Below, in pieces: positions 4,193-14,326 of a DNA stretch of 64,000 nt; position 1 is the stretch's first letter, and each line of letters starts with the position of its first letter. This stretch comes from Powellomyces hirtus. Its lineage: Eukaryota; Chytridiomycota; Chytridiomycetes; Spizellomycetales; Powellomycetaceae. The stretch is from contig JAHLKG010000030.1 in assembly GCA_025526995.1 (NCBI GenBank), positions 134,501 to 198,500 of the forward strand. Reading direction: 5' to 3'. The position numbers and the translations under genes were made by a program. Below the pieces are notes generated by a model that did not search any database, was not told where the DNA came from, and was given only the letters and a program-made list of their open reading frames with translations.

Positions 4193-4199
4193 ATTTATA
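4193..4199 (-). promoter_or_regulatory. TATA box of the 3737-4150 gene
   Basis: TATAAAT on the minus strand, 43-49 nt before the ATG at 4150. The short spacing implies a very short leader, as in compact viral genes. Confidence 0.4.
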
Positions 4200-4808
4200 G
4201 GAATGTGGGGAAGCTATCTTTTGCGCGAAAACGAAAGGATACGGGGGAAAGCCCCTGTTTGAGGCTGTGTGGCAAGAGGCGGACCTATCGAGAGGTAAAA
4301 GACGAAAAAACCAGCGGGGAGCATAAAGGACCGTGTGGGGAGAATATCCCAGCTAGATCTGGGAGTTTGAGAGGAGCAAAAAGGGGTCATATAGAATAAT
4401 TCCGTAGTACTTTTGGAAAAAGAACATATTTTTTTACTGATGCTAGAACGGATCTATGGTTTCCCAGCTTCTCAGACACTCAGAATTTTTTCGAGAGAAA
4501 AAAATATAGTATAAAGAAGAGATGTGACTGGAGGGTATGGAGAGGGCAACGGTTGGAGAATGAAAAGATGGAGAGGTGTGCTTTGGAAAACTGAGTGTTT
4601 GGATTTAGCGGTTGGGAATCGGGTGGGGTGGGGAGCTGAGGGGCTTGCTATCGATAGGAAGGAACGGACTCCAATGGAAGGTGGAAAACGGGGGGAACAT
4701 TGGACGCATGGCTCGATGCTTACGAGAGGATGACATAAGCAACCCAAAGCTAAATTTGGGATGGAGACGCGCCTGCCTACACCGGGACTACACTCTGACT
4801 ACATTGTG
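4200..4808. other. no gene seen; purine-rich spacer
   Basis: Only short frames without coding character. The plus strand at 4505-4720 is strongly G/A-rich. This stretch separates the virus-like block from the accessory island. Confidence 0.5.
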
Positions 4809-4863
4809 GATACAACCCAGATACAACCCAGATACAACCTAGATACAACCTACATACAACCCA
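4809..4863 (+). repeat. 5 x 11-bp tandem repeat
   Basis: Five head-to-tail units of GATACAACCCA with one- or two-base differences, ending 6 nt before the 54-bp palindrome. Confidence 0.9.
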
Positions 4864-4869
4864 TATACC

Positions 4870-4923
4870 TATCACAGTGCATCTGAGGTGTAGTATATAC
4901 TACACCTCAGATGCACTGTGATA
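4870..4923. repeat. perfect 54-bp palindrome
   Basis: The two 27-nt arms, beginning TATCACAGTGCATCTGAGG, are exact reverse complements with no spacer. It abuts the left 45-bp direct repeat of the island directly. It could extrude as a cruciform or be an inverted duplication left by an insertion event. Confidence 0.95.
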
Positions 4924-4968
4924 AATGTGGCTCGCGACGTGGCCGAGGTGGCCGAAAGTTTAGGTACT
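4924..4968 (+). repeat. left 45-bp direct repeat of the island
   Basis: Starts AATGTGGCTCGCGACGTGG and ends GAAAGTTTAGGTACT. It is identical over 45 bp and in the same orientation as 13949-13993. Confidence 0.85.
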
Positions 4969-5280
4969 GTGAAGGTATCTTTCACATTGCAACTAAGCGC
5001 CACATTTTGTGGCCTGGTGTGTGGCCTCGATTAATGTGGCCGAGCACTTAAATACCTGACTTCCAAGCCGATTTTGCCGATTTCAAGCCAAACAAGCCAA
5101 TGGAAAACACGTGCTCATGTACACGTCAGCACAGCACTTGAGCTGCCGAATCTCACTCACGCAGGCTCACCTGTCAAATCCCATTCTCCCCCCAACTCAT
5201 CTTACCATCTGACACCTCTCATCTCATCTCATCTTATCTCATAACACAACGAGCACAACACCACAAACGAGGTATGTAAG

Positions 5281-5349
5281 GGACGGGTTAGATGGTGTAT
5301 TTGAAGAGAGCAGTCCAATTTGCATTGAAAAACGAACTGACATGCGTCC
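5281..5349 (+). repeat. 69-bp element, copy 1 (5'UTR intron)
   Basis: Exactly 69 bp from GGACGGGTTAGAT to GACATGCGTCC. It makes up all but 14 nt of a probable leader intron 5272-5354, with donor GTATGTAAG and acceptor CGCAG just outside the element. Confidence 0.8.
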
Positions 5350-5385
5350 CGCAGTTTTTTAGTTTTTTTTTGTAAGTAGGGCATT

Positions 5386-6275
5386 ATGGGAACCGTAGCA
5401 AGATTGTTTAACCTAGGCGGAGGAGGTGGTGCAAGTGGTAGTGGTGGAAGTGGTGATGGTGAAAGGAAACGATCGTCGCAACCACCCAAAGAGGGACATT
5501 ATCTCGAAGGTTTTGCAGCCACTCAAGCTCGCATGGCGGAAGAAGAACTGCAAGCAACCGTTGCGCTCCTGCGATACCTTGCCAAAGCCTGCCCCCCTCA
5601 GACCTTACAGCGGAAGGGGACTGCCTGGTACTGGTGGACCATGACAGACATCAATCACATCAATACCTTGGCACATCAACTCGAGTCTGGTATGGTGGCT
5701 GGCTGGGCTCTTGTTGGCAATGAAGTAAGGAACTACGCTGGAGGGGAGCGTGTTAGGGGGATATGTGTACGCCAGGAGCTCTTGGGTATGTATGGACACG
5801 TTAAACATTGTCTTTGTGCATGTAAACAAATTTGGCAATCAAAAACACCATTTACTGCGGCTGTATGTGCTGGACACAGTAAATGGTTTTTTTGCACGCA
5901 ATCGGAGTAGCTATACGCTTTAACGTTATTTAATATGTCCACTCACTTCTACCTCTATTTATTGTTGTAGGCGGCGACCTCAAGTTTCATCCTGTCAATC
6001 GCGACCATCACGCAATGTGGCACATGCCAAGAGTCCCTAGAACTGCTGAGGTGGACTGCAGCCGTGGCTCACAGTGCTCAAATGCGAAAGCCAGAGAAAA
6101 CCCTGCCTGGGAGAGGGAGTTCCTTCCACCAACGATCCCAACAGCTACTCGTGCGACTCGTGCAAGAATGGGCAAGGTTTTGACCAAAGAATCAATGAAT
6201 CCCCAAGCTGATGAGATCATGACCGAGGATGAGCGGGATGAGCAGGAGGAGCAGGAGGAGGACAAGGATGAGTAG
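5386..6275 (+). CDS. unrecognised 234-aa island gene, 2 coding exons
   Basis: Exons 5386-5785 and 5971-6275; the 185-nt intron restores one frame (phase 1). A leader intron at 5272-5354 is likely, so both introns are built on 69-bp elements. The N-terminus is glycine/serine-rich (GGGGGASGSGGSGDG). The middle (about residues 45-130) looks globular and helical with several Trp/Tyr (GTAWYWWTMTDINHINTLAH). The C-terminus is acidic (EDERDEQEEQEEDKDE). I recognise no family. It is the leftmost gene of the island, and the stop is followed by a G-rich tract. Possibly a passenger of the same mobile element as the recombinase; that is inference. Confidence 0.65.
5794..5940. repeat. 69-bp element, copies 2 and 3, head to head
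   Basis: Copy 5794-5862 starts GGACACGTTAAAC (its last bases are degenerate). Copy 5872-5940 runs from GGACACAGTAAATGG to TTTAATATGTCC in the opposite orientation. Nine nt separate them, and GTATGT precedes each copy. Together they fill the intron 5786-5970. Confidence 0.85.
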
Positions 6276-6276
6276 T

Positions 6277-6319
6277 GGCAGAGGGGAGGGGCAGAGGGGA
6301 GGGGAGGGGAGGGGAGGGT
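6277..6319 (+). other. G-quadruplex-type tract
   Basis: Seven runs of three or four G separated by 1-4 nt, immediately after the stop codon of the 5386-6275 gene. It meets the usual G4 pattern on the plus strand. Confidence 0.6.
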
Positions 6320-6805
6320 TTTGATTGTTTTGCAATATAGTAGTATCAGTATTCATTTCAATCACATTCTGTTCCATTTCACACATGACACGCACACAGA
6401 CAATGCCACTAAAAAAGCAACCACCAAAGAAGCAACCACCAAAGAGGAAAAGGTCTCCCAGTCCCACAGCCTCAGACGAAGACCTTGAGACTGTTATGCA
6501 GACAAAAGACTGGACCGCAGGGGTTCCCCCCAAGTCTACACTTGTGAGATGGCCATCATGGCATATTTATACTTTTACTTATTTTTGGCTAGTAAAAAGC
6601 CATATCCCAAGTTAAGGCAGACGCGCCTCATAAGTGATTACCCAATCCTTCATAAGCATCTCCACAAGTCTCAGCTCTGTAAGCATACCCTCGCAATGCG
6701 CAGCTGCACTGCCCAGATACACTGCCCCGCTGCACTGCCATAGATCCCTAGATCATCTCCCCGTTCTCCCCAAGTTAGCTAGAGACTAAGAACCCGAGAA
6801 CCTCA

Positions 6806-6813
6806 TATATAAA
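6806..6813 (+). promoter_or_regulatory. TATA box upstream of gag
   Basis: TATATAAA about 250 nt before the gag start, in a region with the position of an LTR U3/R segment. No second LTR copy is visible to prove this. Confidence 0.35.
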
Positions 6814-7057
6814 TGAGAAGGAAAGCACCCCCGGTGGAGATCATCATCCATCAATACATCAACATCCAAAAACTCGAAATATCATATCATTTCCTCCCTA
6901 TCTCTCGCCTCTTCTTTTTAAGAACGACTCCAAGTCAATGAACTTCATACCTCCCGCCTTGAAACATAGGCACCTCACATGGTAGCACCACAGCGTCTTT
7001 CCTGTCAGAACTCACTTCTTCTCGCTCTTTTCCTTGATTAAAAACACAGTGATTCAC

Positions 7058-8808
7058 GATGGCTGCACCCGGACCTGCTGCCTGGACTTTTCCCGCCGTA
7101 GGCCCTGCCCTGCAGAATGGTGACCGGCTCAACAAGATCACCTTACAAACGACTCTGGTTGCCAATACAAGACGATTCCATACTTCTCTGGCGAACACGA
7201 TATGGAACTGATCGATCTCTTCGTCACCACGAATGTCAGAGCTTGCAACCACTTTATCACGGCTTATACCGGCATCGCTTACAACGAGTTCAACTATTTC
7301 GACGAGTACGCCATCACCAATATGGACCCTTCAGTCGTCGCCTGGCATGTCGCTATCATGAACAATCTTCACGTTCAACCCGCCGCGCCGGCCGAAGGCG
7401 TTGCCGCTTGGTGGGCCACCCAGTTCTACCAACGATGGATGCCCCGTAACGTTACCAATCGCCTACATCAAGAAATGGCAGCTCTTTCGCTTGGAAACTC
7501 GCTTGAGGATTACATCCGTGAACTGGAATGATATCGACATCTTGAAACAATTGCTGTCCGCGCCAACGGCAATGCTACCGAACGACTTCTCCTTAAATCC
7601 GAGATGATCGACATCTTTCGCGCAGGCCTTCTCCAAAACGCAACCTACGGTCTTTACCTTGTCCAAGCCCTGCAAAACTTCATGACGATGAGACTTACCA
7701 TCGGACAAGCGGTCACCTGGCCCCTGGCCGTAATCTGCGTCCGAAACGCAGCAGCCTCCTGCAACCTGGTTGATGGCTACCTTACTACTCCCGCACGGGC
7801 ACAAGCCAAGGCCCCTGCCCGATTCCACCCTTACTCAGGCATCAAACAAGCCCCCTCTCGTACCGCTCGACGGACCTTTCAACAACCCGCACCAGTTACT
7901 CCTCGAAGATCAACAATCGAAGGCCAAACATCTAAGCAAGCGATCCCCCAAACACCAAGAAAGAGACCTAGCTTACCAACGCCAATTACTACACCTCAAG
8001 GAACTCCTGCACGCAGACCAGCATTTCCTAGAACTCCAGCGACTCCCAAAACGCCTATGAAACGTGGGAGTGCTATGCTCTGCAAACAATGCGGACGAAC
8101 CAATCACAAGATCCAGGACTGTTTCGCTAAGCGAGACGTCAATGGCGAAGCAATCGGGGAATCAGCTACTAGCAGCACTTACCCGGTTAGACAAGTCAGT
8201 CGAATCAGCGAAATCAGAGCCGATGAGGAAGACCAAGACTCCCAGGATTTTCTGGACGGTTGGGAGTAGAAATCGGTTCCCCTCAACCCAATAAGGGACA
8301 TACTCTCTTCCCTGAATCCGATATTCCCTGGATGACATGTAATCGACCACCCGAAAGCCCTAAGGGCAATCCTACATCTATTCGACGAATGGATTTTCAA
8401 ACCCGACTTCAACCTGGCAAAGCTTCAAGCGCACCCAGTTGGGTCTTCCGAGTCAAAATGGGCACCAAGCCAATTATAGCCCTCTTGAACACCGGCTGCA
8501 ATACCATGGTCGTTCAAGACCGCGTAGCAGATGAACAAAGACTCGAGAAGAGACCTCTTGATAACCCATACGACATTGATACTGCCGGTGCTGGCCAAAG
8601 GATCCGAATCACCTCCTTTACCACCCAATCAATCCAAATTTTCAATAATGTCTTGCAAGACTACGACTCTGTTGCTTCTTTCCATTTCGAAATTGCGCCT
8701 ATTGGAATCCCTCTTATCTTGGGACTTCCATTCCCCACCAATATATTAAGTATGGAAGGAAAACTACTTATATCGGAGTTGATCACGTGGGTTCACGTGA
8801 TTGCGTGA
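7058..8808 (+). pseudogene. gag and aspartic protease of an LTR retrotransposon, decayed
   Basis: Gag begins near the ATG at 7058 and continues in a second frame with PYFSGEHDMELIDLFVTTN, a typical gag core, after a frameshift near 7160. An in-frame TGA follows at 7529. The second gag block (7604-8269) is rich in Pro/Arg/Thr and carries a zinc knuckle CKQCGRTNHKIQDC (C-x2-C-x4-H-x4-C). After another frame change, 8380-8808 encodes a retropepsin-like domain (KPIIALLNTGCNTMVV, later PLILGLPFP). The catalytic DTG reads NTG, so the protease would be inactive. Reverse transcriptase, RNase H and integrase are absent. This is a non-autonomous relic inserted in the H3-like gene. Confidence 0.7.
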
Positions 8809-8877
8809 TACGCCCTGCGATGGCGCAGTTATGACTCGATGACAGAGTCTGTACGTGCTAACACCCGCCCATGCTTT

Positions 8878-8984
8878 GCGGTCAAAACCATCATCTAATT
8901 TGTCCGAGTACCGCTGGACAAATTAGATGATGTTTTTGAATGCGCTTTGCCATTCTGAACCCTTTCTGATGATTTATTGTGTCC
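8878..8984. repeat. 69-bp element, copy 4, with hairpin arm
   Basis: Copy 8916-8984 runs from GGACAAATTAGATGATG to TTTATTGTGTCC. Its first 28 nt recur inverted at 8878-8905 (17 bp perfect at the core, 10-nt loop), the remains of a second head-to-head copy or a strong hairpin. It lies in the probable first intron of the H3-like gene. Confidence 0.7.
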
Positions 8985-9191
8985 TCCATCTTCCTTCAAT
9001 GCCAGCTATTACGCCTCCAAAGTGGGCGCATTGATCCCAAAGGCACCATTTCGATGATGTGTCTGCGGGATCGTCGTCCCGGTGTGGACAGACGAGTTGA
9101 ACGCAAAAGGAAAGCTGCGTTGGAATGCTAGGGGCATGGATGTACTGCAAGAAGGAGCAGAGCTCTTTCTGGCAAGTTTTTTGGCAGACTC

Positions 9192-9466
9192 TGTAATGAG
9201 GCGTGGCTCACCAGCCCAAGCCTAGACACGCATCGGGAAGGGTCCCGTGCGAGATGGATGCTAGCGTCAGCATCCTGAAGGGTACTAGACCTCAGGGATG
9301 GCCACGGATGGCCATCACGTGACCAGGGCCACTCCGCGGCCTAGAAGAAAAGTAGAAATGCTCCAACGAGGGCGCATTCAAGACTTAGAGATCTTACAGT
9401 AGAATTAGACAGAGGGAATTCCCAAATAGAAGACTAGACTCTGGCAACGGACCTAGTCTTATTACA
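9192..9466 (+). mobile_element. solo LTR 1 (275 bp)
   Basis: It begins TGTAAT and ends ATTACA and is flanked by the 5-bp duplication GACTC (9187-9191 and 9467-9471). The second solo LTR at 11114-11388 has the same length and highly similar sequence. Removing the LTR plus one GACTC restores the H3-like frame (FLADS|LLVS). Confidence 0.95.
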
Positions 9467-9539
9467 GACTCGCTCCTGGTGTCTCGCCATACCAGGCAAT
9501 CCACCGTCACAAAGTACGACGTAAGTGCATATCTGATTA

Positions 9540-9608
9540 GGACGCATTAAATCAGTTATTTGAACGATTGGTCCATCCGCTGGAAGCGAAAACTCAATTT
9601 ACTGTGCC
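9540..9608 (+). repeat. 69-bp element, copy 5 (intron)
   Basis: From GGACGCATTAAAT to TTTACTGTGCC, the last bases degenerate. It lies inside the 103-nt intron 9521-9623 of the H3-like gene (GTAAGT...TTGCAG, phase 0). Confidence 0.85.
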
Positions 9609-9988
9609 TTCATTACATTGCAGGTTCAGATTGCGGCAGCTCTGGGTGGGCGCCTTGATCCTGAACGCGTTAAGGAGTTGCGGCGACTGCAGATCTGCGA
9701 TGAGGCCGCCAGGGAGAAGGCGGCTTCTCTAAAAAGGAGAAAGGCGAAGGGGAAGGGGAAGGCAACGGCGACGGAGTCGGAGTCGGATTCTTCATCCGAA
9801 TATGAGCCTTACCCGCAAAAGTGGGACGATGAGGAAGACGCGTACAATCCACACGGTGAAGGGCCTTTGGGTGGGTCTGCTTCAGGTACCGCTGGTACCC
9901 CTGGTGTATCCTATGCAGATGTATAGTTTTGCAGCGGGGGGGTGGGGGGGGAGGGGTTGTTCCTATTATTTAGCATAAAGGTCCTATA

Positions 9989-10138
9989 GGACGCATTAAA
10001 TAGCACATATGAAAGCAGCTTTTCAACACGAGCACAATGAAAACATTTGACGCGTCCACACGGGATGCTGGACGCAATAGATAGTTTATTTGGAGGTCAA
10101 CTCTATCTGCCAGCGCAAAGAACACATATAAAGCGTCC
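9989..10138. repeat. 69-bp element, copies 6 and 7 (intergenic)
   Basis: 9989-10057 runs from GGACGCATTAAAT to TTGACGCGTCC. 10070-10138 runs from GGACGCAATAGAT to ATATAAAGCGTCC. Both are exactly 69 bp and lie 12 nt apart. They sit between the H3-like stop (9926) and the recombinase 3' end, so they are not in a coding intron. Confidence 0.85.
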
Positions 10139-10637
10139 AAGTCACTAGCTAATCTGCAGCAGGTGCTATAGGAGGACAACTAAGTTCTATATTATGACGC
10201 CTTGTCTTGGGTGGTGGCGATATGTGTGCCCTGTACTTATCCAGAGTCAATCCAAGCCCTTCTCTCTCCATGTCCATCATCTCGGCAATCTCATATCCTG
10301 TGCATCCAGACTCTCTCATTCACTTGTCGATTTCATTATATATCACCTTGCGCTTGCTCCAGTATTTCCATTCGGTTGAACTATGCGTTCGCCACGTTGC
10401 TTTGTGTGCCAGCTCTAAGCTATGTACGGAAGGATGTCGTCCAACAACCGTCCCCTTCTCATCAAGAATTGGCTGCCCTTCTTCATATTCCAACCAAACT
10501 TGAAGCACTGTCTGGTGATGCCGATAAAGCTCATATGGCAGCCATTTGGCAGACTCGGAGCCCTGTGTCTGTTGTGGTTGTGGTTGTTGTTGTTGTTGTG
10601 TCTCTTCTGCGTACAACTGCTGTTCCGTGTGGTTTCT

Positions 10638-10706
10638 GGACAGAATAAATGATGTATTTCAATTTAGAGCGCGGCTTGGGAGCAAAAAAGATCAGTTAAC
10701 CTGTCC
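10638..10706 (-). repeat. 69-bp element, copy 8 (intron)
   Basis: On the minus strand it reads from GGACAGGTTAACTG to CATTTATTCTGTCC, inside recombinase intron 10715-10636. The acceptor AG follows the element end directly. Confidence 0.85.
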
Positions 10707-10787
10707 AACGCTTACCTAGTAGTCGTACGCAACAGGGGTCCGTCGTCCTCTTCTTCTGACGTTGTTGACGTTGGAAAGAGTAATTGC

Positions 10788-10807
10788 GGGGGGGGGGGGG
10801 GGGGGGG
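10788..10807 (+). repeat. 20-G homopolymer
   Basis: Twenty consecutive G on the plus strand (poly-Pro codons in the recombinase gene). The frames before and after it differ by one step, so this is a slippage mutation or a length error of the assembly. Confidence 0.9.
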
Positions 10808-11007
10808 CATCCGTCAGCTGTGACATAGTAGACTGTAACTGGCGTGCTGCTGGAGATCGACAGATGTCGGATATCGCTGTTACCATCTCGTGCACCGCAA
10901 CAGAGGTGGCTTCTTGCCGAATGCCCAGTGCGTTACAATATGTCTGAAAAGTCCCTTGCATCTTCTCCGCTATACGGCTGGCGTCCTTCCGGGTATGTCT
11001 GATCTCT

Positions 11008-11076
11008 GGGCAAAGTAAATCGTATATTTCAACTCCAAATGCGGCTCAGAACTGAAAAAGATGCTTTAACGTGTCC
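11008..11076 (-). repeat. 69-bp element, copy 9 (intron)
   Basis: On the minus strand GGACACGTTAAAGC to GATTTACTTTGCCC. It fills all but 11 nt of recombinase intron 11085-11006; the acceptor AG directly follows. Confidence 0.85.
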
Positions 11077-11113
11077 TGTACATACCTTCGATGATTTCTT
11101 TACCCAGTCTGAT

Positions 11114-11388
11114 TGTAATGAGGCGTGGCTCGCCAGCCTAAGCCTAGACATGCGCCGGAAGGAGCCCCGCGCAAGATGGATGCTAGCGTCAGCATCCTGA
11201 GGGGTACTAGACCTTAGGGATGGCCACGGATGGCCATCACGTGCCCGGGACTGCCTCGCGGTCCAGAAGAAAAGTAGGAATACTCCGACGAGGGTGTATT
11301 CAAGACTTAGAGATCTTACAGCAGAATTAGAGATAGGGAATTCCCGAATAGAAGACTAGACTCTGGCAACGGACCTAGTATTATTACA
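11114..11388 (+). mobile_element. solo LTR 2 (275 bp)
   Basis: TGTAAT...ATTACA, same length and family as 9192-9466. It is flanked by the 5-bp duplication CTGAT (11109-11113 and 11389-11393). It interrupts the recombinase frame between NQNDMSI and RLGKEIIE, so it inserted after the recombinase. Confidence 0.95.
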
Positions 11389-11803
11389 CTGATAGACATG
11401 TCGTTTTGATTTGAGATTCCGCTCAACTCAAAGGAGAGTGCTTGATTACCAGTGGTAATCATTGATGCAATTTGTGGAACAACATATTGAAGAGTTGCCA
11501 GGGTTGGATTGACGACGCTGCGCATCCTGTCCAAGAGCTCTGTCTTGTAGAGAAGGAATGCTGGCGATCGGAACAGTGGATGGGTCCATATGGCATGCAA
11601 TGGAAATTTGTCTATCAAGACTGCAGCATCCTGAATGACAACACGGCACATTTTCTTCAACAGAATTGCAAAGCCTCGTCCAGCAATGTCCGTAACTTGT
11701 GGATTACCCAATGCTTCATCAACAAATGGAAACACGGCAGCTTCTAGTTCTTCAGGGACATCAATACATGCGCGGGGTAAGAAGAACCCGCCACCTCAAA
11801 GAT

Positions 11804-11872
11804 GGACGCGTTAGAATGTGTTTTTTGCATTCCCTTTATGGATGTCACACAATTAATCAATTTAATGCGTCC
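11804..11872 (-). repeat. 69-bp element, copy 10 (intron)
   Basis: On the minus strand GGACGCATTAAATTG to ATTCTAACGCGTCC, within the 83-nt recombinase intron 11877-11795 (donor GTAAT, acceptor TTTGAG, phase 1). Confidence 0.9.
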
Positions 11873-12248
11873 ATTACCTTGTATCAGCCATTGACCTAAT
11901 GCGCGCATAGCTTGTTTCGGGAGCTCCAAATCGTAAGACATATTCTTTGCTGTTTGGTCCCAGCCTCCCATTCTGTTAACGTCACTTCCATCCACGCCTC
12001 GAGATGTTGCTGTACGGACTGCAACGCCACGTGGGAGGTGTGTCACTTTTGATACATTGATGTTGCAAGCCTTGAGAGCCCGCTGATAGATTTGCGGATG
12101 AGATTGATATGACATGCCATTGGGATTATTGTCCTCGCATTCGTCTTTTCCCTCTCCCGCACCATCAACATCTACTTTTGGAGGTATTAGATAGCGGCAT
12201 TGCATGAAAGAGAACGGGAGGCATTCAAAAACATTGTCCAGTGTAGAC

Positions 12249-12317
12249 GGACGCAGTAAATGGTGCTTTTGACTGCAAGCTTGGCTTATGTTCACAAAGA
12301 CGATGTCTAACGTGTCC
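12249..12317 (-). repeat. 69-bp element, copy 11 (intron, boundaries uncertain)
   Basis: On the minus strand GGACACGTTAGACATCG to CCATTTACTGCGTCC. It lies at a recombinase intron. No acceptor beyond the element end keeps the frame, so part of the element may be retained in the exon. Confidence 0.8.
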
Positions 12318-12737
12318 CGTTTTACTTACATGTGTCTGCATGTTTCCGCTTTCTCGACTTCGCTCGCTTTGTATCTCTCTTCATGAAGTATGTGTTGTAC
12401 CATGACTTGTTATCGGTGAAGTCTGGCAGTTGTTCATTGGTCTTGTGATATTGATAGAAAAGGAAGAACGCGGCATGGCCAACAGGGCATAAGGCAGCCT
12501 CTTTATGGCGCATGCAAAGCACCTTTTCCTTGCGGCCTACTTTGTTTGTTTTCCCTTCGCGTGAAATGGTTATCATAGCGAATGCTGGCGTTGGTCCTTC
12601 CTCTTTTGGTAGATCAGAGCTGAACATATATGAGAGCTGAAGCAGTCTGATACTCTGTCCACGCCCCATAGTCGAATGTTGAAGAAGAAAGCATGCAGCA
12701 TTCTGCAAGCCCATCTCTGGTTGTGCCTACGGATATT

Positions 12738-12806
12738 GGACGCATTAGAATGTCTTTTTGCATAGATATCATGGATCATGGTTGAAATACTTGATTTAAT
12801 ATGTCC
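12738..12806 (-). repeat. 69-bp element, copy 12 (intron)
   Basis: On the minus strand GGACATATTAAATC to ATTCTAATGCGTCC, within the 84-nt recombinase intron 12810-12727 (phase 0). GTAGG occurs at both splice junctions. Confidence 0.9.
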
Positions 12807-13374
12807 CTACCTGTCCCCACCAATGCGCAACTAGGGCACTCTGTTCTGCTTCGCTGTACATATCAATGAGTGTTCCGACGCCACGGTCTTCAAATCCTTT
12901 TAACTCTCGCTGGAGTACTCCATGGGCGTAGGCTTTGACCATGTCGAAGAGTGTCTTTGTACGTGGGCAGTTATCTTTTGTATTCATGTTGAGTTGACAT
13001 TGATAAGACCACAAGTTGACGGTTGCCTTAATAAACTGCTCGATGCTCGCCTTGCTGTATGGTTTGTTCATTCCTTTTTCATCTTTGCGGCTTGAACCTT
13101 GCGGTATAACAGCTTTATTCAACCATAAAAGAACTTTGTCTGGCGCGACTCGCTCGTCCATGCCTAGGGAGCGACATCAATCTTTGTACCACTTTGCGCG
13201 CCATTCATATGCATTCCAAGTGGCCACAGGCCGTGCATTGTGGTTGGCAACGAGTTGATTCAAATTGTTTGCATGCAGGGCCATGAGGTTTTGAACGTCC
13301 TGGTTCATTGCGGTGCCATGGAGCGCTGCTGCAGCAGCAGGTGGTAGGTTGCACAGGTTCATTGCACGGGAAGG

Positions 13375-13627
13375 GGACGTAGTAAAGGTTGATTCCGAGG
13401 CGAGCGAGTTGGAAGCAGTCCAAAGAAGCAAAAAAGACTGTCCAGTGGAAGGAGGCGGACACAGTAAAGGTTGATTCCAAGGCGAGCGAGTTGGAAACAG
13501 TCCAAAGAAGCAAGAAAGACTGTTCCAATGGTCCCAGTGGTCCACAGCGGAAGGAGGCGGACGCAGTAAAGGTCGATTCCGAGGCGAGCGAGTTGGAAAC
13601 AGTCCAAAGAAGCAAGAAAGACTGTCC
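13375..13627 (-). repeat. 69-bp element, copies 13-15 in tandem
   Basis: 13375-13443 and 13559-13627 are 69 bp and 13457-13526 is 70 bp. Each runs on the plus strand from GGAC(A/G)(C/T)AGTAAAGG to AAAGACTGT(T)CC. They share much more sequence with each other than with the other copies, and the minus-strand frame reads through all three. Confidence 0.85.
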
Positions 13628-13948
13628 CAATGGTTGGTTAAAAATGTGGGCAAATGCAATTGCGAAAATGCAATGGCAATGGCGAAATGTCGTGGGGGTG
13701 GGCTCAAGTAACGAGATAAATACAGCCTACCTTATGTAAGAGACATTCCAATGGAGTCCAACCAGGTATCAGTTAATCGAGGCCACAGTGAGTGCTGTAA
13801 GCAGTGAAATACCTATGGTATTTGAGCTTTTCGTAGATAAATGTGTGGTTGACTATCTAGTGCAGATACCTGGGGGCGGTGAGCCCCGCTAGGTATTTGG
13901 TTATGTAAGCTTAGGTAAGGTCACGTGTATTTGTGGCCTTGGCTAGGC
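13628..13948. other. 5' flank of the recombinase, no gene
   Basis: No ORF of coding character. It contains short inverted stretches around TAGGTATTTGG and the start of the right island end. Confidence 0.4.
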
Positions 13949-13993
13949 AATGTGGCTCGCGACGTGGCCGAGGTGGCCGAAAGTTTAGGTACT
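13949..13993 (+). repeat. right 45-bp direct repeat of the island
   Basis: Exact copy of 4924-4968 in the same orientation. The flanks AGGTAT downstream are also partly shared. Confidence 0.85.
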
Positions 13994-14326
13994 TACAGGT
14001 ATACCAAACAAGACTGCATTGCCAGAAAATGTAGTATTCCCTAGCGAGATTTATTCCTACATGATCCAAATTTTTGCTTGCAGCTTGCATAACGTTTTCA
14101 TTTCCACCACCAGTCGCGTTGCTTCACTCGCGTCTTTGTCAGTTGTGCTCCCCTGCGCCCTCCGTCCCCAACCTCCTTTTGCCGCCGCAATTTTCCCCCG
14201 CGGGGCCCTCGCAAAAATCCTAAGTGATTAAATGCGAATTCGAACCCCGACAGGCCTTTCGCTCCGGGCTTCGTTTTTGCTGAAGATCAAGTTATTTGTA
14301 ACGGGACGGGGGAAACGGGACTGACC

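Follow-up and report, generated by a model that had tools for sequence, protein, structure and literature searches.

Fixed-length 69-bp inverted-repeat units in the predicted introns of a Crypton-type element from the chytrid Powellomyces hirtus

The Crypton-type element and its genes

Positions 4965 to 13993 of the window (the whole stretch of DNA analysed, 64,000 nucleotides from the chytrid Powellomyces hirtus) were occupied by a copy of a Crypton-type element, which starts with TACTGTGAAGG and ends with GTTTAGGTACT. A sequence-only reading of this DNA had described an island of three unrelated genes on both strands; the three genes and the use of both strands held, while the island was the gene set of a single Crypton of about 6.2 kb. 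Nested insertions enlarge the window copy, and an intact copy (C22) measured about 6.24 kb. The element ends were common to the C22, C1 and window copies (the right end also to C3), and the flanks of these copies were unrelated. As candidate terminal direct repeats, the window and C22 copies had TACT at each end and C1 had TACT/TATT, and the left end of C3 shared ACT only. A remnant of the right end of another copy (4924-4968, forward strand; a 46-bp match over 4924-4969) abuts the left end of the window copy, which fits integration beside another copy.

One gene encodes a tyrosine recombinase (NDC10_II and GCR1_C domains), another a histone H3-like protein and the third an unknown protein. 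This third gene, G1 (5386-6275, forward strand), has two coding exons (5386-5785 and 5971-6275) and a product of 234 aa matching no Pfam family. G2 (6403-9926, forward strand) is histone H3-like, as its reading from the C22 copy matched PF00125 (E 9e-17) and a histone H3 in the PDB (E 4e-13); a nested retroelement interrupts its first exon in the window copy, and in C22 that exon is intact. G3 (10200-13362, reverse strand; 3' boundary near 10200 approximate) encodes the Crypton-type tyrosine recombinase in six exons and is broken in the window copy. Judged by its predicted domains, the recombinase is of the NDC10_II type with a GCR1_C domain, as in CryptonF. No relative of it scored in the protein collection searched. 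The host element resembles CryptonF as described by Kojima and Jurka (2011, PMC3212892), with a tyrosine recombinase carrying GCR1_C and, apparently, short terminal direct repeats and no TIR, but differs in its two extra genes, one of them histone H3-like, and in its introns of 69-bp units. Mentions of "histone" (2) and "intron" (11) in the main text of that paper describe neither in a CryptonF.

Anatomy and distribution of the units

All 15 stretches listed by the sequence-only reading were recovered, 14 of them 69 bp long and one 70 bp. Each clear unit comprised an unconserved 23-bp centre flanked by two 23-bp arms in inverted orientation. The inverted repeats proposed earlier were therefore real, but they were about 23 bp long (GGACRYRTTARATNNTGTTTTTG) instead of 4-12 bp. 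Interiors varied as had been claimed, with a pairwise identity at centre positions 25-45 of 0.30 vs 0.26 in shuffled interiors (n=11 units). The GTCC end did not apply to the right end of the unit at 5794, which read GGCT in the window copy and the C30:75k copy; among the six copies compared, it was GTCC in C3, C22 and C25 (C25 one base out of register) and GTCT in C1.

In and around G1, units lie at 5281-5349, within a possible leader intron (5272-5354, forward strand; acceptor ambiguous), and at 5794-5862 and 5872-5940, 9 bp apart in a 185-nt intron (5786-5970, forward strand). G2 intron 1 contains the unit at 8916-8984, paired with an additional 69-bp unit on its left that is intact in C22 and C1 and was reduced by an insertion in the window to a remnant at 8864-8905 (left boundary approximate). 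The unit of 70 bp, the sole length exception, lies at 9540-9609 within G2 intron 2 (9521-9623, forward strand, 103 nt) and is also 70 bp in a diverged fragment (C17). Two units separated by a 12-bp spacer (9989-10057 and 10070-10138) are located between the convergent G2 and G3.

All five G3 introns (reverse strand) hold units. Intron 5 (10636-10715, 80 nt) holds the unit at 10638-10706, with the acceptor AG directly following the unit end GTCC, and intron 4 (11006-11085, 80 nt) has the same layout around the unit at 11008-11076. Intron 3 (11795-11877, 83 nt) and intron 1 (12727-12810, 84 nt) carry the units at 11804-11872 and 12738-12806, respectively. Intron 2 (12175-12329, 155 nt) contains two units head to tail, the one at 12249-12317 and an additional, degenerate 69-bp unit adjoining it at 12180-12248. 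Upstream of the G3 start, a set of three near-identical tandem copies with weak arms (13375-13443, 13457-13525 and 13559-13627) was also 69 bp each.

In the C22 copy, a score cut-off of 20 left 13 pairs measuring 69 bp (the weak one at 5810 and 12 clear units), one at 70 bp and none of any other length between 40 and 120 bp. The 13 clear C22 units scored 29-57 (leave-one-out), compared with a maximum averaging 6.9 and reaching at most 21.6 over 100 Markov copies. Over window positions 13998-64000, the best pair scored 11.0 when its length was left free and 1.7 when it was fixed at 69 bp. Chance origin was rejected for the 13 clear units from the length spectrum, the Markov copies and the genome-wide controls, and not rejected for three weak units on arm score alone. 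The two C22 equivalents of the weak tandem set scored 18.8 and 21.1, not above the null maximum of 21.6, and the degenerate unit at 12180-12248 scored 15.6, within the null range.

Genome-wide, 36 of the 37 places with the exact 69-bp pattern were inside copies of one mobile element, and the remaining one (C8) showed no arm similarity by eye; the reversed-pattern control gave none. When the length was left open from 59 to 84 bp, 28 of 30 places were exactly 69 bp, all in element copies, the other two being 72 and 79 bp (reversed-pattern control again 0). A more sensitive search for the arms, with up to three mismatches, returned 83 matches vs 7 in the control. Those outside element copies were an element fragment (C17) and five lone places (C6, C40, C7, C12 and C54), fewer than in the control. 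C6 and C40 carried the same 23-mer, yet 600 bp there had no similarity to the element, and C3:520048 had none in 500 bp. Further copies thus exist, with similarity reaching well beyond the four end bases, and they are confined to copies of the element. The genome-wide pattern searches turned up no unit in ordinary genes, in agreement with what had been noted for the window. Nor did the genome yield an autonomous partner with the same ends or a mobilising enzyme. A viral source was rejected, as viral contigs had neither the exact 69-bp pattern nor a recombinase relative, and no known RNA family reached the gathering threshold in window positions 4900-14050.

Sister units and intron positions

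Two units in different genes were similar over their whole length. The units at 5794 and 12249, on opposite strands and in the same sense relative to their own genes, were identical at 55 of 69 positions. In C22 (units 827 and 4577) their arms matched at 43 of 46 positions, against a mean of 29.3 (sd 3.0) over 156 pair-orientations, and their centres at 13 of 23, with a single-test p of 0.0014 for a pair that was picked by its arms; across the 13 clear units, the top match within a shuffled set attained the best observed centre value (13/23) in 17% of trials. Their flanks were dissimilar (10/30 and 16/30), so what the two share is bounded by GGAC/GTCC rather than by the splice sites. The units at 10638 and 11008 formed a weaker pair of possible sisters (47/69 overall; arms 36/46, centre 12/23, flanks 11/30 and 13/30), and those at 11804 and 12738 (C22: 4132 and 5066) had arms matching at 36 of 46 positions but centres at only 3 of 23. 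Over all pairs, arm and centre similarity were uncorrelated (r = 0.07). Most unit centres appeared unrelated in sequence, and whole-length similarity was clear for one pair only.

Every predicted intron of the coding regions (8 of 8) contained one or two units. Intron boundaries were placed manually around each unit, which could have let a unit-free intron escape notice where the frame stays open. Two NCBI models were concordant with these predictions. DFJ77DRAFT_515114 (P0001) splices G2 intron 2 as predicted, and DFJ77DRAFT_546026 (P0005, from the C3 copy) does so for the 185-nt G1 intron; of the other G1 models (P0006 and P0007), one shares the acceptor only and one differs, so the prediction was matched by one of three. 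Splice sites lay outside the unit at variable distances (4-22 nt and 2-30 nt), and a branch-point-like YTAAY was found near the 3' end of the arm in several introns.

As previously noticed, most of the introns consisted of little more than a unit and a few additional nucleotides. The non-unit remainder was 11, 11, 14, 15 and 17 nt in the five G3 introns, and 36, 47 and 47 nt in those of G2 and G1. A length of 11-17 nt is below that of any spliceosomal intron known to work, which argues that no intron was there before the unit. Intron positions were compared with one distant Crypton paralog (C27), which aligned to G3 residues 63-733 in one frame (with one TGA). The alignment ran cleanly across the positions of G3 introns 1 and 3, which are intronless in the paralog; at intron 2 the TGA fell within a gapped stretch, and the alignment was weak at introns 4 and 5. 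Introns 1 and 3 may also be missing from C27 through intron loss.

Among element copies outside the window, units were present in 46 of 47 comparisons and truncated in one, and empty sites numbered 0 of 47. With no copy lacking a unit, the argument for intron gain draws on one distant, intron-poor paralog and the tiny remainders, and not on empty sites. The target duplications looked for did not appear, as flank identity over k=3-12 was at the shuffled level across 16 units. The best single candidate, GTATGTAT/GTATGTGC, came from C22 unit 827; a composite target duplication, with exon ends matching intron flanks, was set aside on a check by eye only.

Origin of the units and relation to known introners

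On balance, we lean towards reading the units as introner-like, non-autonomous DNA elements that built the predicted introns of the Crypton. The two inverted 23-bp arms would probably be where some transposase binds and cuts, with an intervening spacer of exactly 23 bp whose sequence would be irrelevant. Units would have inserted repeatedly, over a long time, into the genes of one Crypton-type lineage. Those landing in a coding exon would have persisted if a GT and an AG lay close enough for the spliceosome to excise them along with 11-47 nt of flank, and the arm may supply the branch-point-like YTAAY in several introns. The Crypton, its coding-region introns gained from units, would then have multiplied in Powellomyces hirtus carrying finished introns. 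Units outside coding introns, such as those at 9989 and 10070, are what DNA insertion would produce and intron copying would not.

The strictly fixed spacing with a free centre could also mean that the units are paired binding sites for one of the Crypton's own proteins, either the GCR1_C recombinase or the product of G1. Scattered over the element as regulatory or synapsis sites, they would be tolerated where they fall within introns or between genes; the 69 bp would be the distance set by a bound dimer, and no mobility would be required. Such sites would account for the confinement of units to the element, for their presence between genes and upstream of G3, and for largely unrelated centres with no correlation between arm and centre similarity. 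We nevertheless consider this explanation rather unlikely. One pair in different genes shares both arms and centre, which implies that this unit, if no other, was copied in its entirety, and most introns hardly exceed a unit. Arms were not conserved above exons between element copies (3.6% of positions changed in arms, 4.4% in centres and 4.1% in exons, thus alike), and the element termini carried other repeats (GTGGCC, by eye), these arms being absent there from the unit listing.

It is less probable still that the units are short transposons that took shelter in pre-existing introns and made none. Splice sites outside the unit at variable distance would suit such an origin, as would the lack of any duplication linking unit and splice site. 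Against it, the five G3 introns would have been of unworkable size before insertion, no unit-free coding-region intron was predicted, and the C27 paralog has no intron where G3 has introns 1 and 3. Multiplication of the introns as RNA, through reverse splicing or intron copying with the inverted arms as an RNA hairpin, would agree with the same sense kept by the two closest pairs and with the stem near intron ends known from the stwintrons described in PMC12403724, but seems very improbable given that the shared sequence ends at the unit ends, that units occur outside predicted introns, and that folding was weak and no better in sense than antisense (mean z -1.08 vs -1.24, 16 units), for which a hairpin was also rejected as a conserved feature.

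Taken as introner-like elements, the units form a family living in a mobile element, and not a genome-wide introner invasion. The introner proposal made from the sequence thus survives for a TIR unit forming predicted introns in three genes, one unit being shared by two of them, and is not supported as regards target duplications, empty sites or presence in ordinary genes. Introner-like elements (ILEs) are near-identical whole introns present in many host genes, whereas the part shared here is a 69-bp core without splice sites, and no host gene was found with this core. Likeness to the ILEs of Dothideomycetes (PMC4457414) lies in sequence-related introns multiplying in a fungus. TIR-type introners, as presented in the main text of Gozashti et al. 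(2022, PMC9860276), are likewise short non-autonomous TIR units that constitute nearly whole introns in unrelated genes. The present units differ from them in occurring only in the genes of one transposon, in having largely unrelated interiors at a fixed length, in commonly forming doublets and in having a chytrid host, "chytrid" being a word absent from that main text. The same source gives TIRs in 72 of 177 judgeable introner families and TSDs in 49 of 130, and includes families with TIRs and no TSDs (Acanthoeca) or with neither splice site (Florenciella). The sister stwintrons of Hypoxylaceae and Xylariaceae, in the portrayal of PMC12403724, share with the units a fungal host, symmetry near the intron ends and no reported TSD, but are double introns, one nested in the other, whose 10-nt elements are complementary as RNA, unlike 23-bp DNA arms with no strand-specific RNA fold. 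Mirusvirus candidate introners, as outlined in PMC12768974, were also amplified within a mobile genome and not in host genes; they belong to a virus and form groups of highly similar introns, and are not known to include a counterpart of the fixed 69-bp paired-arm unit.

A more tentative possibility is that the units built every Crypton intron in another host, or in an active period since lost, and that horizontal transfer of the Crypton then delivered them, already assembled as introner cargo, to a genome whose own genes contain no introners. That the element encodes a histone H3-like protein next to a recombinase of the Ndc10 type is of interest because Ndc10 (Cbf2) is described as a Crypton-derived centromere protein (PMC3212892). 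Two arms at an exact spacing with a free centre make the minimal requirements for mobility directly testable, and the 23-23-23 geometry, if the units are indeed mobile, would be among the smallest known DNA transposons, with two binding sites at a fixed spacing. The origin of new introns is a long-standing question to which introners provide a main known source, and if one introner family lives only inside a single mobile element, transposons would be seen to host introners and perhaps to act as vectors for them. If the units did copy themselves among the genes of the Crypton, a jumping gene would harbour a family of new introns of its own.

Arms and fixed length of the units

All 15 stretches of the form GGAC...GTCC listed by the sequence-only reading were confirmed in place, with a length of 69 bp in 14 of them and 70 bp in the unit at 9540. 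Stacking 11 units (22 arms; the unit at 9540 and three tandem units at 13 kb were omitted) displayed a flanking arm of 23 bp at each side, GGACRYRTTARATNNTGTTTTTG, around an unconserved centre. Units of the reference copy of the host element, on contig C22, were scored with arm matrices built without the tested unit (leave-one-out). Scores of the 13 clear units ranged from 29 to 57, while the null gave a mean maximum of 6.9 and a largest value of 21.6 (100 Markov copies, all lengths 40-120). Two tandem units near the recombinase gene (18.8 and 21.1) and a degenerate unit (15.6) scored within this null range, which leaves 13 units to carry the strong claim. With a cutoff of 20, the length spectrum of the C22 copy encompassed 13 units of 69 bp (12 clear ones and the weak unit 5810), one of 70 bp and none of any other length. 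Four doublets of units were found, with spacings of 0, 9, 10 and 12 bp.

Further copies, which the sequence-only reading proposed to seek in the genome, were found in number, but essentially all of them lay inside copies of the same element (36 of 37 in the search for 69 bp only). When length was left open (59-84 bp), 28 of 30 places were 69 bp long and inside element copies; the remaining two (72 and 79 bp) displayed no common arm by eye. A one-end pattern gave 67 matches vs 4 in the control, and 83 vs 7 with three mismatches allowed.

The host Crypton and its copies

The units lie in a Crypton (window 4965-13993). Hits in the 29.26 Mb genome, with counts that are lower bounds, indicated at least six copies of it: those on C22, C1, C3 (276-311k), C30 (75-114k), C25 (partial) and the window copy, itself on C30 (window at 134501-198500). 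The C3 and C30 (75-114k) copies were apparently interrupted by other sequence. The C22 copy was complete from end to end (about 6.24 kb; left end ATACTGTGAAGG, right end GTTTAGGTACT). Sequence flanking the element differed from copy to copy, and the terminal direct match was TACT in the window and C22 copies, TACT/TATT in C1 and ACT alone in C3.

The element encodes a 234-aa protein (G1, 5386-6275, forward strand) without a Pfam match at a cutoff as loose as E 10, a histone H3-like protein (G2, 6403-9926, forward strand; PF00125, E 9e-17; PDB histone H3, E 4e-13) and a tyrosine recombinase (G3, about 10200 to 13362, reverse strand) with NDC10_II and GCR1_C domains, the combination of CryptonF in passages of PMC3212892. 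A histone H3-like gene is found next to an Ndc10-type recombinase gene within one Crypton; titles and abstract openings among the matches listed in the literature on these subjects described no H3-bearing Crypton. Lesser H3-like matches elsewhere in the genome, e.g., at C6:1245684 (44% identity), may represent host H3 or CENP-A.

The window copy was broken by nested insertions in G2 and G3. A retroelement remnant (6543-8863), carrying a CCHC zinc finger of gag type (PF14787), took the place of the terminal part of G2 exon 1 together with half of one unit, and solo LTRs of 275 bp (TG...CA) interrupted G2 (9192-9466, perfect 5-bp duplication GACTC) and G3 (11114-11388, perfect 5-bp duplication CTGAT). 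G3 exon 5 contains a long G run (10788-10807) that is not equally long in the window and C22 copies, with an effect on the reading frame. Genes of the C22 copy were damaged as well: G1 and G3 each contain a stop, and in G3 a single donor is mutated and the frame changes. A repeat of about 730 bp (4193-4923), edged by a perfect 54-bp palindrome (4870-4923), adjoined the left end of the Crypton in the window. In inverted orientation it also borders the copy at C30:112k, at the right end, which is truncated there. A diverged Crypton fragment at C17:562.2-562.7k (89% DNA identity over 507 columns) kept an H3-like exon and a 70-bp unit still ending in GGAC...GTCC.

Units in predicted introns

Introns were placed by hand around the units, with frame-keeping GT-AG sites as the criterion. 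In the C22 copy, units were present in all eight predicted coding-region introns, namely one of 185 nt in G1 (two units), two in G2 (185 nt with two units, 106 nt with a single 70-bp unit) and five in G3 (84, 155, 83, 80 and 80 nt, the second with two units). Apart from its units, each G3 intron contained 11-17 nt, and each intron of G1 and G2 contained 36-47 nt. Seven surviving coding introns and a possible leader intron of the window copy were GT-AG.

Among NCBI gene models over element copies, P0001 (DFJ77DRAFT_515114), fused to the retroelement, spliced the G2 unit intron exactly as predicted, and P0005 (DFJ77DRAFT_546026, C3 copy) did so for the 185-nt G1 intron. P0006 used the predicted G1 acceptor with a different donor, and G1 splicing differed in P0007. 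A second, distant Crypton recombinase of the same genome (C27:9797-11735, 28% identical to G3) matched residues 63-733 of G3 throughout in one reading frame, interrupted by one TGA. This alignment was clean over the positions of G3 introns 1 and 3, showed a gap with the TGA alongside at intron 2, and was weak at introns 4 and 5. No units were found in the C27 Crypton (10 kb examined).

Origin and age of the units

We favour a minimal two-arm DNA unit that would have inserted again and again into the genes of the Crypton. Splice sites would be recruited from the surroundings of the inserted unit, and YTAAY within the arm, judged from its sequence, may serve as a branch-point-like element. Cryptons are reportedly named among introner sources in a 2025 paper of the Gozashti et al. 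group on horizontal transmission of introners. Among 548 introner families, some have TIRs without TSDs and some rely on the sequence at the site of insertion for both splice sites, according to passages of Gozashti et al. 2022 (PMC9860276), whose main text does not contain the word 'chytrid'. The one paper found on introners together with Chytridiomycota has three 'introner' passages, none of which mentions chytrids.

The 13 clear units of the C22 copy give 156 pair-orientations, over which arm agreement averaged 29.3/46 (sd 3.0). Two units from different genes, 827/4577 (window 5794/12249), reached 43/46 in the arms and 13/23 in the centre, the best centre of all pairs, the centre p of 0.0014 being a single test on a pair picked by its arms. 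Their 30-bp flanks matched at 10 and 16 positions only, and the likeness stopped at GGAC/GTCC instead of extending to the splice sites. The next pair, 3243/3616 (10638/11008), agreed at 36/46 in the arms, 12/23 in the centre, and 11 and 13 positions in the flanks. Against a general rule of whole-unit copying stand the pair 4132/5066 (11804/12738; arms 36/46, centre 3/23) and the shuffled sets, whose maximum equalled the best centre match in 17% of trials. Arm and centre similarity were not correlated over pairs (r = 0.07), and among 240 pair-orientations of 16 units only three, all from a near-identical tandem set, had p <= 0.001.

Target duplications at the units, suggested as a check by the sequence-only reading, were not found; presence/absence among element copies gave 46 of 47 comparisons outside the window occupied, one truncated and none empty; and no units were found outside the element in the genome. 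Each of these results counts against mobility. In the main rival explanation, the arms would serve as binding sites for a protein of the Crypton. RNA folding displayed no preference for a sense-strand hairpin. For the favoured insertion of two-arm units, the rest of the genome yielded no element with ends of the unit type, and the mobilising enzyme would therefore be lost, in another host, or a Crypton protein.

Divergence among copies was 3.6% in arms, close to the 4.4% of centres and the 4.1% of exons; it was lower in intron flanks (2.5%) and higher in other sequence (5.0%). The arms thus seem to have been carried along as passengers from the time when the copies spread. Indels per aligned bases numbered 3/3,715 in units, 49/15,127 in exons, 4/922 in intron flanks and 104/4,489 in other sequence, and their rarity in units is given little weight because exons and other sequence contain simple repeats. 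We infer that the fixed length must have been imposed earlier, during the multiplication of the units.
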